A stretch of 64,000 nucleotides of DNA from assembly GCF_030063195.1 (NCBI RefSeq), contig NZ_JASISS010000002.1:62001-126000 (forward strand), written 5' to 3'. The DNA is from Cryobacterium sp. PH31-AA6. Its GTDB lineage: Bacteria; Actinomycetota; Actinomycetes; Actinomycetales; Microbacteriaceae. The position numbers and the translations under genes are program-made. Each line of letters starts with the position of its first letter. The first letter of the stretch is position 1. The notes beneath the pieces are model-generated. The model was not told the origin of the DNA, searched no databases, and saw only the letters and a list, made by a program, of their open reading frames with translations. This document shows, piece after piece, positions 24,938 to 30,991 of the stretch.

Positions 24938-25033
24938 CCACACTGCCCAGGTGTCAATCCGGCCGTCTCTACTTGGCCGTGATCGCCCTGGCAGCGCCGC
25001 CGGCGACAGCGCCACGGCATGAGAGGTGTTCGA

Positions 25034-26374
25034 ATGGCAACCCGCACAAAATCCGAGCCAAGCGAAGAAACTACAGCGGCCACGCCCGACGTGGCAGCGC
25101 CCGATTCTGCGGCCAAGGCGCCGGCCAAGGCGACTGCGGCTAAGACCCCGGCCGTGAAGAAGCCCGTCACCAAGGCCGCCGCCGCGAAGGCCGCTGCCGC
25201 CCTGGCCGCAGAGGCCGCCGGAGAGAAGCCCGCACCGCGCAAGCGCGCCGCGGCCACCAAGACCAAGGGCAAGGCGGCGGCGGGGTCCGATGACCACGAC
25301 GAGCATGCTGCCGGCGAAGACGCAGATTCAGACGACGACGACGCCGAGGAACGCAAGAAGCGCGCGGCCGCGGCCGAACCGCTGCCCAGCGGTGCCCTGG
25401 TGCTCTCACTCGTTGACGACGACGACGAAGTCCCGGTCTACTCGAGCGCGATCACCGGCGCGACCGCTGACCCCGTCAAGGACTACCTCAAGCAGATCGG
25501 AAAGGTCGCGCTCCTGAACGCGGCCGAAGAGGTCGAACTCGCCATGCGGATTGAGGCCGGACTCTTCGCTGAGGACAAGCTGGCCGTCATGAGCGACGCG
25601 GAGAAGAAGAGTGCGCTCGGCCGCGAACTCCTGTGGGTAGCGAAGGACGGCGCCCGCGCCAAGAGCCACCTCCTGGGTGCCAACCTCCGCCTCGTCGTCT
25701 CCCTCGCCAAGCGCTACACGGGTCGTGGGATGCAGTTCCTCGACCTGATCCAGGAGGGAAACCTGGGCCTGATCCGTGCCGTCGAGAAGTTCGACTACAC
25801 GAAGGGCTTCAAGTTCTCCACCTATGCCACCTGGTGGATCCGCCAGGCGATCACCCGGGCGATGGCCGACCAGGCCCGCACAATCCGCATCCCGGTGCAC
25901 ATGGTCGAGGTCATCAACAAGCTGGCCCGCGTGCAGCGCCAGATGCTGCAGGATCTGGGCCGCGAGCCTACCCCCGAAGAACTCAGCCGTGAACTGGACA
26001 TGACGCCGGAGAAGGTCGTCGAGGTCCAGAAGTACGGCCGCGAACCTATTTCGCTGCACACCCCCCTCGGCGAGGACGGCGACAGCGAATTCGGCGACCT
26101 GATCGAGGACACCGAGGCCGTCGTGCCGGCGGACGCCGTCGGCTTCACGATGCTGCAGAAGCAGCTGGAAAGCCTGCTTGACTCTCTGTCGGAGCGTGAG
26201 GCCGGCGTGATCCGGATGCGTTTCGGCCTCGGCGATGGCATGCCGAAGACCCTCGATCAGATCGGTGACACGTTCGGCGTGACGCGTGAGCGCATCCGTC
26301 AGATCGAATCGAAGACGATGGCCAAGCTGCGTCACCCGTCACGGTCGCAGTCACTACGCGACTACCTGGAATAG
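25034..26374 (+). CDS. sigA: Principal RNA polymerase sigma factor
   Basis: 446 aa. It directs RNA polymerase to housekeeping promoters. The first about 130 residues are an Ala/Lys-rich then Asp/Glu-rich region 1.1-type extension, as in actinobacterial SigA/HrdB. Region 1.2 starts at [11 protein letters not shown]. Region 2 has [22 protein letters not shown] and [14 protein letters not shown]. Region 4 ends with [18 protein letters not shown]. The ATG at 25034 has GAGAGG 7 nt upstream, better than the GTG 15 nt earlier. murT starts 8 nt after the stop, so peptidoglycan genes may be read with sigA. Confidence 0.97.
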
Positions 26375-26382
26375 GTCGCCGC

Positions 26383-27651
26383 GTGCGCTATGCACCGGCG
26401 ATCCTCGTCGGCCGGATCGTTCGTCTCCTGGCCAGATGGCGCAAGCCGGGCGGGGGCTCCGCGGTTCCGGGTCTCGTTGTGAATACGATCGCGCCTGGGT
26501 TCCTGGCCCGGACGCTGAACGGTTTTCCCGGTGGCCTGGTCATTGTGACCGGCTCGAGCGGCAAGTCCACCACCACGAAGTTGTTGGTGGCCGCGCTCCG
26601 CGCGCACGGTCTGGGCGTATTCACGAACGAGTCGACGGCCAACATCAGCCAGGGACTCACCTCCGCGCTGCTCGAGCAGGCGAGCCTCGCCGGTCGGATC
26701 AGTGGCGATGTCGCAGTTCTCGAGATGGATGAGGGCCACGGCGCCCTGATCTCGGGTTCGCTGACGCCACGCGTCGTCGCGCTGACCAATGTCATGGTCG
26801 ACCAGATCGATCGTTTCCACGATTCCGAGATGGTCGCGGCGATGCTCGCCAAGATTGCGTCCCGCGCCACCGGCACCGTCGTCGTGAACGCTGACGACCA
26901 GTACCTGCTCGACCTGGCGGTTCATCTCGACGCCCCCGTCGGGATTTCCCGCTTCGGAGTGTCGGCGGACGTTCTCGCGGCGAACCCGCGGGGCCTGGGC
27001 TACAGTGCGACCGCCGTTGCGCGGCTGGGCGCGGCAGAGGGAATGCTCCTGACCGCGGTCGACGGCCGGGAGGCCACCGTCCTGGTGGACGGCGCCCCGT
27101 ATCCGATGGTGTTGCCGGCCCGAGGAACGCACTACGCCGTCGACGCGGTCACCGCGCTGTGCACTGCCCAGGCGGTACTCGGCGACCGGTTCGACCCCGC
27201 CATCGCGGCGGCGGCCATCTCGGCCATCCCGCCGGTCTTCGGCCGCGGCGAAATCGTCACGGTTCGCGGCCGCAAGGTTGAATTCGTGCTCGTACAGAAT
27301 CCCGCGAGCTTCCAATTGAACGTGGACAGCCTCGCGTCCGGGACCGACCAGATCCTGATCGCAATCGGCTCCGACGTGCGTGACCCGTCCTACTTCTGGC
27401 CGGTCGATACCTCCGGCCTCGACCGGGTCGCGATCGCATCCGGTTCGAAGGCGCAGGAGATCGCCCTCCAGTTGGCCTACGACGACGTCACCGTCGACCG
27501 GATCGAGCTCGATCTCGGCAAGGCGCTCGACGACTTCCTCGCCTTGCCCGACCCGCAGGTCGGGTTGAAGACCATCATTTTCTCGGCGGACTCGATGCGC
27601 CGCACCAGGGCCCATCTGGGACTCGCCTCCAACAAGGCAGGGCGGGACTGA
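26383..27651 (+). CDS. murT: MurT-like Mur ligase (lipid II D-glutamate ligase subunit), no zinc ribbon
   Basis: 422 aa. MurT normally activates the alpha-carboxyl of D-Glu2 in lipid II with ATP so that ammonia from GatD gives D-isoglutamine. The Mur-ligase P-loop TGSSGKSTTTK (G57-K65) and the C-terminal DUF1727-type domain with DVRDPSYFW (Asp334, aligning by motif with the catalytic DxSW region) are clear. Unlike studied MurT proteins, the central domain has no four-cysteine zinc ribbon: the protein contains one cysteine only (C260), and the expected region (about 190-225) is short and cysteine-free. It overlaps gatD by one base (TGATG). Its partner is also atypical, so activity on ammonia is doubtful. 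Confidence 0.9.
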   Translation: MRYAPAILVGRIVRLLARWRKPGGGSAVPGLVVNTIAPGFLARTLNGFPGGLVIVTGSSGKSTTTKLLVAALRAHGLGVFTNESTANISQGLTSALLEQASLAGRISGDVAVLEMDEGHGALISGSLTPRVVALTNVMVDQIDRFHDSEMVAAMLAKIASRATGTVVVNADDQYLLDLAVHLDAPVGISRFGVSADVLAANPRGLGYSATAVARLGAAEGMLLTAVDGREATVLVDGAPYPMVLPARGTHYAVDAVTALCTAQAVLGDRFDPAIAAAAISAIPPVFGRGEIVTVRGRKVEFVLVQNPASFQLNVDSLASGTDQILIAIGSDVRDPSYFWPVDTSGLDRVAIASGSKAQEIALQLAYDDVTVDRIELDLGKALDDFLALPDPQVGLKTIIFSADSMRRTRAHLGLASNKAGRD

Positions 27652-28391
27652 TGCGCGCACTCACCATCGTGACGGTGCTCCCGGAGCTGCTCGGAAGCAA
27701 CGGCGACGCCGCGAACGCCCGGGTGCTCGCCCAGCGAGCACGCTGGGCCGGTTTCGACGCCAGCATCGTGGAGGTGCGCGCTGCCGCGGACCTGCCGGAC
27801 CAGATCGACCTCGTCGTGGTCGGTTCGGGCTCCGATACCTCACTGATAACCGTGCGGGACATCCTTGCGACGATGACCGAGCAACTGCGCACGTGGTGCA
27901 CGGCAGGGATCCCCATTCTTGCCGTCGGCACCGGCTGGGAGCTCCTGAGCTGGGGGATCGAGCTGGGCGACGGGACCGTCGTCGAGGGTCTGGGAATCGT
28001 GGCCGGCCGGGCCGTTCCGCTGCCGGAGCGTGCGACCGACGACATCGTTGTCGACTCGAAGTTCGGCAGGCTGGTCGGGTTCGAGAACCATGCCCGCGGT
28101 TACACCGGCGCGGAAGCGTCTCCGCTGGGGAAGGTGCGCTCCGGCACCGGCAACGGCGCAGTGGCGGCGGGTACAGGTGTGGAGGGCCTCGTGATGGGCA
28201 ACCTGTTCGGCACCCACCTGCACGGTCCGGTGCTGGCGCGCAACCCCGCCCTCGCTGATCACTTGCTGGCCACGGCCGTGACCCGTGCGGGCGGCGAGTA
28301 CGTTCCGGGGGAGAGGGCAGCGTCCGTCGATGCGATTGCGAAGGCCGGACGCGATCAGCTGGCCGCGAGGCTCGGGCTCCCCTCGGAGTGA
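27651..28391 (+). CDS. gatD: GatD-like class I glutamine amidotransferase with missing catalytic cysteine
   Basis: 246 aa. GatD normally hydrolyses glutamine and channels ammonia to MurT. The overall family pattern is clear: the N-terminal LLGSNGDAAN motif, VVVGSGSD, the nucleophile-elbow region, a FENHARGYTG segment and GTHLHGPVLARNP with the catalytic-type His191. At the elbow, where the family has VCGG(Y)Q, this protein reads AVGTGWELL with Gly93 (codon GGC). The only cysteine is C83, ten residues away. Glutaminase activity by the usual mechanism should therefore be absent. It may keep a structural or substrate-binding role in the MurT complex. Confidence 0.88.
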   Translation: MRALTIVTVLPELLGSNGDAANARVLAQRARWAGFDASIVEVRAAADLPDQIDLVVVGSGSDTSLITVRDILATMTEQLRTWCTAGIPILAVGTGWELLSWGIELGDGTVVEGLGIVAGRAVPLPERATDDIVVDSKFGRLVGFENHARGYTGAEASPLGKVRSGTGNGAVAAGTGVEGLVMGNLFGTHLHGPVLARNPALADHLLATAVTRAGGEYVPGERAASVDAIAKAGRDQLAARLGLPSE

Positions 28392-28484: not shown

Positions 28485-28736
28485 CTAGGAGCGCTGGTCC
28501 TCAAGGAGTCGGCTCGACTCGTCGTGCCAGCTCTCGGCGATGGCGGCGAGCTTCTCCTGGTGCTTGCGACCGTGGTGGGCGCAGAACATCAGTTCGCTGT
28601 TGTTGACGACGACCCGAATGTACGCCTGCGCGCCACACGCGTCACAGCGGTCTGCCGCGGTGAGCTGGTGAGGTGCGCTCTGCCCGTCGACGGAATTCTG
28701 GTCGATGGCACCATTTCCGGTTGCGATCTGGGACAT
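28485..28736 (-). CDS. DUF7455 small zinc-finger-like protein
   Basis: 83 aa from the ATG directly behind a strong GGAGGAGG site (complement 28742-28749); a longer frame upstream lacks support. The family is actinobacterial and regularly encoded between sigA and parE. Putative metal ligands: CDACG (about residues 34-37) and FCAHHG near residue 53. The rest is a charged helix. The function is not known. It is divergent from parE. Confidence 0.85.
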   Translation of the reverse strand: MSQIATGNGAIDQNSVDGQSAPHQLTAADRCDACGAQAYIRVVVNNSELMFCAHHGRKHQEKLAAIAESWHDESSRLLEDQRS

Positions 28737-28909
28737 GTTTTCCTCCTCCGGACTGATACCAAGTGATACCAATTTTGCTTGTGCTCCATGTAAACACGGT
28801 CGGCCCGGCTTTTCGACTGTGTTTGGTTGCATTTCGCTCACCGCGTAGACCATTCCGGCCGGGTGTTGGTGGGGGGAAGGAGGCCCTGCGGCCGGTATTC
28901 TTGAGCGTT

Positions 28910-30991
28910 GTGAGCTCTTCAGACTATTCCGCGCGCCACCTGTCGGTACTCGAGGGGCTCGAAGCGGTTCGCAAACGCCCCGGTATGTACATCGGCTCGA
29001 CGGACTCCCGAGGCCTCATGCACTGCCTCTGGGAGATCATCGACAACTCGGTCGATGAGGCGCTCGGCGGGTTCGGCTCACGGATCGACATTGTTCTCCA
29101 CCCCGATGAGAGCGTCGAGGTCCGGGACACGGCGCGCGGCGTCCCCGTGGACATCGAGCCCAAGACCGGACTGACCGGCGTCGAGGTCGTTTTCACCAAG
29201 CTGCACGCCGGCGGCAAGTTCGGCAGCGGCTCCTATGCGGCGTCCGGCGGACTGCACGGCGTCGGCGCGTCCGTGGTCAACGCCCTCTCTGAACGCCTCG
29301 ACGTCGAGGTCGACCGCGACGGAAAAACCTGGGCCATGTCGTTTCACCGGGGCGAACCCGGTATTTTCTCGGACGCGGGGGAGAAGAGCCCCGACGCGCC
29401 GTTCACCCCGTTCGAGAAGCAGAGCGAGCTCCGGGTGATCGGCAAGGTGAAGCGTGGCGTCACCGGAACCCGGGTGCGCTACTGGGCCGACCGCCAGATC
29501 TTCACCAAGGGTGCCTCGTTCCAGACCGAGGAACTCCTCGACCGGGCCAGGCAAACCGCGTTCCTCGTCCCCGGCCTCGCCATCGACATCGACGACCGGC
29601 GCACCGCGGATGCAGCGCGGGAATCCTTCCAGTTCGACGGGGGCATCTCGGAGTTCGTCGACCACCTCGCGACCGACACGCCGATCACCGACACCTGGCG
29701 GCTGAGTGGGAATGGCAGCTTCACCGAGACCGTGCCCGTACTGACAGACAAGGGCGCCATGGTGCCGACCGAGCTGACCCGGGATTGCGCCGTCGACATC
29801 GCGCTCCGGTGGGGGACGGGCTACGACACCGTCGTGCGCAGCTTCGTGAACATCATCGCCACGCCGAAGGGCGGCACTCACCAGGCAGGCTTCGACGCCG
29901 GCCTGTTGAAATTTCTCCGTTCCCAGGTGGAGCTGAACGCCCGCCGGCTCAAGATGGGATCGGACAAGCTGGAAAAGGACGATGTGATGGCCGGCCTGAC
30001 CGCCGTGCTCACCGTTCGACTTCCCGAACCACAGTTCGAAGGCCAGACCAAGGAAGTGCTCGGAACACCCGCGGTGCGCGCCATCGTGGCGAACGTCGTC
30101 GCCCAGGCCATGAACGAGCGTTTCGTGTCCCCGAAGCGCGACGACAAGACCCAGGCGGCCGTCGTGCTTGACAAGATCGTGGCCGAGATGAAGTCGCGAA
30201 TTTCCGCGCGCGCACACAAGGAGACCCAGCGGCGCAAGAACGCGCTCGAGAGTTCCTCGCTGCCGGCGAAACTGGTCGACTGCCGCAGCAACGATGTGAC
30301 CACGAGCGAGCTGTTCATCGTGGAGGGCGACTCCGCGCTCGGCACCGCCAAGCTCGCCAGGGACAGCGAACATCAGGCGCTCCTGCCAATCCGGGGGAAG
30401 ATCCTGAACGTGCAGAAGGCGTCCGTGTCCGACATGCTCTCGAACACGGAATGCGCCTCGATCATCCAGGTCATCGGAGCCGGCTCGGGCCGTAGCTTCG
30501 ACCTGTCGGCCGCCCGATACGGCAAGGTCATCATCATGAGTGACGCGGATGTCGACGGCGCGCACATCCGCACCCTCCTGCTCACGCTCTTCTTCCGGTA
30601 CATGCGCCCCATGATCACCGAGGGTCGCGTCTTCGCCGCGGTGCCGCCGCTGCACCGGGTTGTGGTGATGAACCCCGGCAGCAAGCCCAACGAGACGATC
30701 TACACCTACTCGGAGACCGAGCTTCAGGGGGTGCTGAGCGGACTGAAGAAAAGCGGAAAGCGCTATCAGGACCCGATCCAGCGCTACAAGGGCCTCGGCG
30801 AGATGGATGCCGACCAACTGGCGACGACCACAATGGAACGGGCACACCGCACCCTGCGCCGGGTTCGCGTGGCCGACGCGGAGATGGCCGGAAAGGTGTT
30901 CGAGCTCCTGATGGGCAACGACGTCGCCCCGCGTAAGGAGTTCATCATCGACAGTTCGGACAAGCTCAGCCGCGACCGGATCGACGTCTGA
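28910..30991 (+). CDS. parE: DNA topoisomerase IV subunit B (GyrB/ParE family)
   Basis: 693 aa. It is the ATPase subunit of a type IIA topoisomerase. GHKL ATP site: EIIDNSVDEALGG, TGLTGVEVVFTKLHAGGKF, GLHGVGASVVNALS. Toprim metal site: IVEGDSALGTAK and IMSDADVDGAHI. C-terminus PIQRYKGLGEMDADQL. Its place away from recF/dnaA and near sigA and DUF7455 points to the second, ParE-type copy rather than GyrB. The GTG start has TATTCT 8 nt upstream (28896-28901). It faces parC across an SDR gene. Confidence 0.93.
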   Translation: MSSSDYSARHLSVLEGLEAVRKRPGMYIGSTDSRGLMHCLWEIIDNSVDEALGGFGSRIDIVLHPDESVEVRDTARGVPVDIEPKTGLTGVEVVFTKLHAGGKFGSGSYAASGGLHGVGASVVNALSERLDVEVDRDGKTWAMSFHRGEPGIFSDAGEKSPDAPFTPFEKQSELRVIGKVKRGVTGTRVRYWADRQIFTKGASFQTEELLDRARQTAFLVPGLAIDIDDRRTADAARESFQFDGGISEFVDHLATDTPITDTWRLSGNGSFTETVPVLTDKGAMVPTELTRDCAVDIALRWGTGYDTVVRSFVNIIATPKGGTHQAGFDAGLLKFLRSQVELNARRLKMGSDKLEKDDVMAGLTAVLTVRLPEPQFEGQTKEVLGTPAVRAIVANVVAQAMNERFVSPKRDDKTQAAVVLDKIVAEMKSRISARAHKETQRRKNALESSSLPAKLVDCRSNDVTTSELFIVEGDSALGTAKLARDSEHQALLPIRGKILNVQKASVSDMLSNTECASIIQVIGAGSGRSFDLSAARYGKVIIMSDADVDGAHIRTLLLTLFFRYMRPMITEGRVFAAVPPLHRVVVMNPGSKPNETIYTYSETELQGVLSGLKKSGKRYQDPIQRYKGLGEMDADQLATTTMERAHRTLRRVRVADAEMAGKVFELLMGNDVAPRKEFIIDSSDKLSRDRIDV

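Follow-up and report, generated by a model that had tools for sequence, protein, structure and literature searches.

Within the 64,000-nucleotide stretch of Cryobacterium DNA analysed here (the window), a two-gene unit on the forward strand encodes homologs of MurT and GatD, with one base common to the murT stop codon and gatD (Table 1). The unit lies in what we call the rpoD slot, bordered on the left by a gene that we name rpoD, the primary sigma factor, from its sequence, and on the right by genes whose products we take to be a DUF7455-type small protein and a parE/gyrB-type topoisomerase subunit. The MurT homolog contains a Mur ligase middle domain (Mur_ligase_M, 52.8 bits), a MurT_C domain (28.4 bits, cut-off 25), a P-loop and the Mg-binding Glu, and its AF2 model is nearest to streptococcal MurT (Z 26.7 and 26.6), with similarity also to cyanophycin synthetase (Z 24.2) and folylpolyglutamate synthase (Z 21.9). 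Among solved structures, the GatD homolog (GATase_3, 58.2 bits) is closest to S. aureus GatD (E 1e-26) and to the streptococcal GatDs; the top match of its AF2 model (pLDDT 75.5) is S. aureus GatD 6gs2 (Z 24.4, rmsd 3.0, 236 residues aligned), and by both sequence and model the fold and the homology hold over the whole protein. Both models are of single chains and draw on 11 Cryobacterium rows, at a pLDDT close to 75. Both proteins fall below the NCBIfam equivalog cut-offs for their families (81.1 and 76.4 versus 800 bits for MurT; 111.6 versus 450 and 79 versus 400 for GatD). The ten named relatives found with the window GatD all belong to Cryobacterium, a genus of Microbacteriaceae.

Table 1. 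Features of the MurT/GatD locus, in window positions, and of related slots in other genomes, where L numbers denote loci (G numbers in the text denote sampled genomes)
Feature	Location	Strand	Description
rpoD	25019..26374	+	Left border of slot
murT	26383..27651	+	MurT-like Mur ligase, 422 aa, GTG start, without CxxC
MurT P-loop G57-S62, GSSGKS	26551..26568	+	Canonical form is GTNGKT
MurT N306-N313, NPASFQLN	27298..27321	+	Carries the SxQxN motif of the Cys-less clade
MurT Asp334	27382..27384	+	Aligned with S. aureus Asp349; surrounding stretch 3 residues shorter than canonical
gatD	27651..28391	+	GatD homolog without nucleophile Cys, 246 aa, ATG start
GatD G58-D62, GSGSD	27822..27836	+	At the place of the canonical GGGGQD motif
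GatD Gly93, codon GGC	27927..27929	+	Nucleophile position
GatD His191, codon CAC	28221..28223	+	Aligned with S. aureus His189; in GTHLHGPVLARNP, the MurT-contact loop
Small protein gene	28485..28853	-	Right border of slot
Topoisomerase subunit gene	28763..30991	+	Right border of slot; actual start probably more internal
CofE-like (PF01996) + ATP-grasp (PF14397) cassette	L202-L204, L206, L207, L212, L215-L220, L222, L225-L228		rpoD-parE slot, genomes without MurT/GatD
Diaminobutyrate-2-oxoglutarate transaminase	L206:1045-2364, L212:905-2170		602 and 603 bits, cut-off 552

The elbow of the window GatD, AVGTGWELL, aligns on TICGGYQFL of the solved GatDs, which places Gly93 at Cys94 and His191 at His189 of the S. 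aureus enzyme and confirms the original prediction that a glycine codon occupies the catalytic Cys position; the frame is likewise intact and coupled to murT, as had been stated. Sequencing error, which that prediction had named as a way in which it could fail, is ruled out because the elbow [AL][VI]GTGWELL recurs in ten named records from Cryobacterium, nine of them strains and one a MAG. Decay to a pseudogene is also ruled out, by the absence of a stop and by low dN/dS: compared with seven of these ten Cryobacterium loci, gatD gives 0.12-0.36 and murT 0.08-0.16, and selection on both genes in Cryobacterium is purifying. The catalytic His had been offered as a further sign against decay; it is indeed retained in the window and in 74 of the 101 core Cys-less rows defined below, but its equivalent is gone in the other 27, which weakens it both in that role and as a mark of an active site.

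A passage of PMC3266927 reports that S. aureus GatD-C94G, carrying this same change, has no glutamine-dependent activity, and because of that precedent glutamine-dependent lipid II amidation is expected to be absent for the Cys-less pair. The loss extends beyond the Cys that was first noticed, to the GGG[GE][QD] motif of GatD, and is accompanied by changes in MurT. The glycine-rich GGGGQD is described in part of PMC6085368 as the likely oxyanion hole of GatD; it is absent from the window, which reads GSGSD, and from 101/101 core rows. With neither elbow Cys nor this motif, and with the C94G precedent, the proposal that GatD is dead as a glutaminase is well supported, and so, from sequence comparison, is a Cryobacterium MurT/GatD that would work without glutamine.

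For the comparison we set 47 canonical rows (17 from Microbacteriaceae and 30 from outside) against 101 core Cys-less rows. The elbow Cys is present in 47/47 canonical and 0/101 core rows, and GGG[GE][QD] in 46/47 and 0/101. In MurT, the P-loop is GTNGKT in all 47 canonical rows and in none of 100 core rows, all of which carry a GSxGKS-type loop that is in turn found in 0/47; an SxQxN motif (pattern [ST]x[QR]xN) occurs in 99/100 core and 0/47 canonical rows; and the segment containing the triad Asp has 17 residues in 47/47 canonical rows but 14 residues in 100 of the core rows, the remaining core row having no such segment. The Asp itself is kept in 148 of 151 rows, the exceptions being two Asn and one gap. 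The catalytic core of MurT and the contact loop are conserved: K61, N82, N87, E114, D116 and E117 of MurT and N198 and P199 of GatD do not vary in any of the 38 core rows chosen for this comparison. Sub-clades of the Cys-less MurT vary in the loop. Loss of the zinc ribbon was considered as a mark of the Cys-less clade and rejected: CxxC is absent in 101/101 core rows, but also in 42 of the 47 canonical actinobacterial rows.

Our family sample comprised 150 Microbacteriaceae genomes, the window's own included, and was counted per genome. A Cys-less GatD occurs in 106 of them (three of which also have a canonical copy), a canonical GatD only in 14 and none in 29, and one (G038) is unreadable at a contig end. 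Thus, whereas the original prediction would have failed had most Microbacteriaceae kept the Cys, 106 of the 120 genomes with a readable elbow have a Cys-less copy. These 106 divide into 89 with core forms, five with shrunken forms, nine with a divergent 'type 3' and three with other divergent forms (G053, G123, G005); the 89 core genomes hold 91 loci, with two each in G113 and G122 and an extra canonical copy in G054, G066 and G124. All 47 distinct GatD loci from outside Microbacteriaceae retain both Cys and His; they were drawn from the best 30 of 47 matched genomes (30/30) and the best 22 of 119 from the whole class (22/22), five being shared. In a set of 246 genomes from the class, MurT matches above 419 bits occur only in Microbacteriaceae.

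The GatD alignment held 151 loci, and in a tree of 149 rows, from which the trait columns were left out, 100/100 core Cys-less rows form one clade (SH-aLRT 100, stem 0.53); the tree comes from a quick LG+G4 search and has several long branches. It requires two changes of the elbow Cys, the second in the pair L119/L121. On this tree the core Cys was lost in one ancestral event, so its absence does not amount to a repeated association with group B peptidoglycan, the tracking that the original prediction had proposed to look for.

Several divergent forms lie outside the core. In five small genomes (L182-L186) GatD is reduced to ~180-205 aa, with the contact loop still present as GPVxxx[NS]P. Type 3 MurT/GatD (L119, L187-L194), with an HNA elbow in GatD and GTSL[IL]GP at the His loop, is found at rpoD in 9/9 cases and with an ATP-grasp gene in 5/9, and a CxxC pair is present in the L119 MurT; the type 3 GatD is a second, separate glutaminase loss. 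L121 (Gryllotalpicola protaetiae) and L195 combine a cofE-like gene with a divergent murT and gatD, L121 having a racemase-fold gene as well. In L117 (G015) a Cys-less GatD lies behind rpoD, again with a racemase-fold gene.

The Cys-less pair has a characteristic position. With the window counted once, rpoD is in the upstream flank of 93/103 Cys-less loci (94/104 rows with the window counted twice), and in G141, G078, G068, G132 and G073 genome coordinates place it within a kilobase. None of the 17 canonical Microbacteriaceae copies has rpoD upstream, and of the 14 genomes with canonical copies only, the ten that were checked have no cassette between rpoD and the right border, so that Cys-less and canonical forms are separate genes and not two states of one locus. 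Behind gatD, 28 of the 91 family core loci carry a gene of the alanine-racemase fold and two carry an ATP-grasp gene; the racemase counts are lower bounds, several loci ending short of the right border. Neither gene was seen in the 36-row sub-clade that includes the window (the right border lies beyond the data in L022 and L032). A racemase is absent from the window's own slot, and a search of its genome gave a single PF00842 (alanine-racemase domain) match, so any D-diamino acid would have to come from elsewhere. Among the genes of the slots that were read, none was recognised as a glutaminase. Two consecutive racemase-fold genes occupy the slot in L230 (2568-4657), L061, L094 and L096, Pfam-tested in L230 only, and are perhaps a heterodimeric racemase.

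In genomes without MurT/GatD the same slot often holds something else. It was read in 28 of the 29 such genomes, and in 19 of these 28 it contains a CofE-like gene (~232 aa, PF01996; the two copies tested reach 47 bits, the cut-off being 25), belonging to a family that we take to join an amino acid to a carboxyl. An ATP-grasp gene (PF14397) is also present in 17 of the 19, a racemase-fold gene in nine, MurJ in two and a diaminobutyrate-2-oxoglutarate transaminase in two. By its sequence, the CofE-like plus ATP-grasp cassette is perhaps a new ligase system; a part in F420 synthesis is unlikely for the CofE-like copies, because the two tested score 24.6 and 31.4 bits against an equivalog cut-off of 180.65. 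The slot is empty in six genomes without MurT/GatD (G019, G051, G062, G094, G121, G146), contains genes that look by eye like ABC transporters in G049 and G119, and is cut off in G044.

The two systems also exclude each other genome-wide. A CofE-like protein of at least 256 bits occurs in 21 of 150 genomes, all of them among the 29 without MurT/GatD, and in 0/121 genomes with MurT; 19 of these 21 genes lie in the rpoD slot. Fisher's test gives p 2e-19 for this exclusion, ignoring relatedness; better evidence than such tests is provided by seven genera (g7, g9, g13, g58, g59, g77, g84), in each of which one sampled species has each system. In G094, moreover, the CofE-like gene lies elsewhere, the rpoD slot is empty and MurT is still absent. 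Weaker CofE-like relatives (106-118 bits) coexist with MurT in three genomes, G053, G123 (Gryllotalpicola protaetiae) and G147, and eight of the 150 genomes have neither MurT/GatD nor a CofE-like protein, two of the eight being 87% complete.

In group B peptidoglycan the cross-bridge branches from D-Glu2, not from residue 3, and the alpha-carboxyl of D-Glu is both the acceptor of MurT and the group B branch point, so that its amidation would block group B cross-linking. Outside Microbacteriaceae, group B is known from the Erysipelothrix lineage. Taxonomy of Microbacteriaceae routinely uses the diamino acid of the wall as a marker. Within the genus Microbacterium, species with L-Lys, with D-Orn and with Dab occur side by side (PMC10757982). 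A table in PMC7033078 lists ten genera of the family, nine with group B and one unknown, and gives B2gamma for Cryobacterium and B10 for Glaciihabitans, both with diaminobutyrate (DAB); a Glaciihabitans (G076) is among our samples. Rhodoluna lacicola (G010), whose wall is B2beta with DAB according to its description in part of PMC4156110, has a Cys-less GatD. Clavibacter michiganensis is B2gamma, with a D-DAB bridge on D-Glu, and a passage of the same source (PMC9603630) describes some muropeptides with amidated D-Glu; in its relative C. californiensis (G109) the only GatD among the matches found is Cys-less (L063). For Pontimonas salivibrio (G030), which has the Cys-less pair, a section of the genome paper infers unbridged direct cross-links from the absence of known bridge genes (PMC6106888). 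The MurE specificity motif, tried as a mark of group B independent of the slot and read in 30 of the 150 genomes, does not separate the groups, DxHPR or DxNPR occurring both with and without the Cys-less MurT; DDDVH occurs in four genomes (G059, G024, G003, G019), all without it. MurE scores 456-468 bits in five of the 30 genomes (L292-L296) against 323-394 in the other 25; the Cys-less MurT is absent in all five, four of which have DDDVH.

We hypothesize that the Cys-less MurT/GatD is a repurposed isoglutamine synthase, which probably joins a bridge amino acid, instead of ammonia from glutamine, to the alpha-carboxyl of D-Glu2. MurT would activate this carboxyl on a peptidoglycan precursor with ATP, and the attacking amine would come from an amino acid that becomes the first residue of the group B cross-bridge; for Cryobacterium this is presumably diaminobutyrate. 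GatD would have no glutaminase role and would persist because MurT requires it as a structural partner; its emptied active site, together with the remodelled MurT loop, may hold the amino acid. An amino acid is proposed as donor because the CofE family replaces the pair, and racemases and a diaminobutyrate supply gene adjoin, in other species. Between the two activities first suggested, attachment of an amino acid or use of free ammonia, the slot evidence leans towards the amino acid, a choice that sequence by itself leaves unsettled. Several observations sit less comfortably with bridge attachment: the weak CofE-like proteins beside MurT in three genomes, the amidated D-Glu of Clavibacter, the unbridged wall inferred for Pontimonas and the lack of a racemase in the window's slot. 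If, furthermore, all eight genomes with neither system and all 14 with canonical copies only are group B, another enzyme must act there.

An unlikely alternative is amidation dependent on ammonia, in which the pair makes D-isoglutamine on part of the stems from free ammonia and GatD is an inert partner. This would leave the MurT loop deletion, SxQxN, the CofE-like exclusion and the slot racemases unexplained, and amidated D-Glu would close the group B bridge site; it would fit the retention of the MurT Asp and, in 74/101 rows, of the GatD His. S. aureus MurT with GatD-C94G does amidate lipid II from NH3 at pH 8.5, with GatD required, although the S. aureus enzyme made no use of NH3 at pH 7.5, both as described in a portion of PMC3266927. 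The amidated D-Glu reported in part of PMC9603630 for C. michiganensis, together with the Cys-less GatD that is the sole one among the matches in its relative C. californiensis, also speaks for it. We regard as rather improbable, too, an envelope amino-acid or peptide ligase with another acceptor or step, such as the second bridge residue, stem residue 3 or a different polymer. The resemblance of the MurT model to cyanophycin synthetase (Z 24.2) and to folylpolyglutamate synthase (Z 21.9) points that way, as does the loop that differs among MurT sub-clades, so that donors or acceptors may differ; but the nearest match of the model is MurT (Z 26.7), and the D-Glu alpha-carboxyl is where MurT is known to act and where group B bridges are known to branch off.

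It is very unlikely that GatD is fed ammonia by another glutaminase, for which no gene was recognised in the slots read, or that the two proteins persist as a regulator without catalysis or as a relic. The GatDs of ~180-205 aa in five small genomes do suggest a scaffold role, but dN/dS of 0.08-0.36 and invariant MurT catalytic residues argue against a relic. We give equally little credence to the slot being a mere insertion hot spot, its cell-wall content uninformative about the Cys-less pair: genes resembling amino-acid ABC transporters by eye do occupy it in two genomes (L210, L223), but the exclusion is genome-wide, and in G094 MurT is absent even though the CofE-like gene lies outside an empty slot (L221).

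The nearest known system is the lipid II isoglutaminyl synthase MurT/GatD of S. aureus, S. pneumoniae and S. pyogenes, with which the window pair shares its folds, the murT-gatD unit, the ATP site, the Asp and an HGP-type contact loop; the window clade differs in lacking the nucleophile Cys and GGGGQD, in its GSxGKS P-loop, SxQxN motif and shorter MurT stretch, and in its rpoD location. Mur ligases MurC-MurF and the pseudomurein ligases have the same fold as the Cys-less MurT, and these enzymes join amino acids to carboxyls with ATP and without a GatD partner. CofE-type ligases (PF01996, the F420-0:glutamate ligase family) belong to a different Pfam family, yet one of their relatives fills the rpoD slot of other species in the family and excludes the Cys-less MurT. 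The C94G laboratory mutant (a passage of PMC3266927) has the identical Cys to Gly change at the identical position, but as a single change in a canonical complex, whereas in the window clade the glutamine site and MurT have changed as well. In PMC6085368 the murT-gatD operon is called universal in Actinobacteria, and its distribution section makes no mention of Cys-less forms; in contrast, 29 of our 150 Microbacteriaceae genomes have no match. Among the matches listed when open-access literature was searched for MurT/GatD with Microbacteriaceae genera, group B or the slot genes, none dealt with a Cys-less pair or named an enzyme attaching the group B bridge.

It is plausible, if more tentatively held than bridge attachment itself, that glutaminase loss turned an amidotransferase complex into the amino-acid ligase that starts the group B bridge of Microbacteriaceae, and that the slot, which may set the bridge type, has been swapped among three systems: the Cys-less MurT/GatD, the divergent MurT/GatD often accompanied by ATP-grasp, and the unrelated CofE-like plus ATP-grasp cassette, some of which would bring their own racemase or diaminobutyrate supply. 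The pair offers a natural case of a glutaminase emptied while its partner ligase changed, and the locus a small set of testable genes for group B bridge attachment. A repurposed pair would explain the loss of canonical amidation in most Microbacteriaceae, and typing of the slot might predict the wall diamino acid from the genome.
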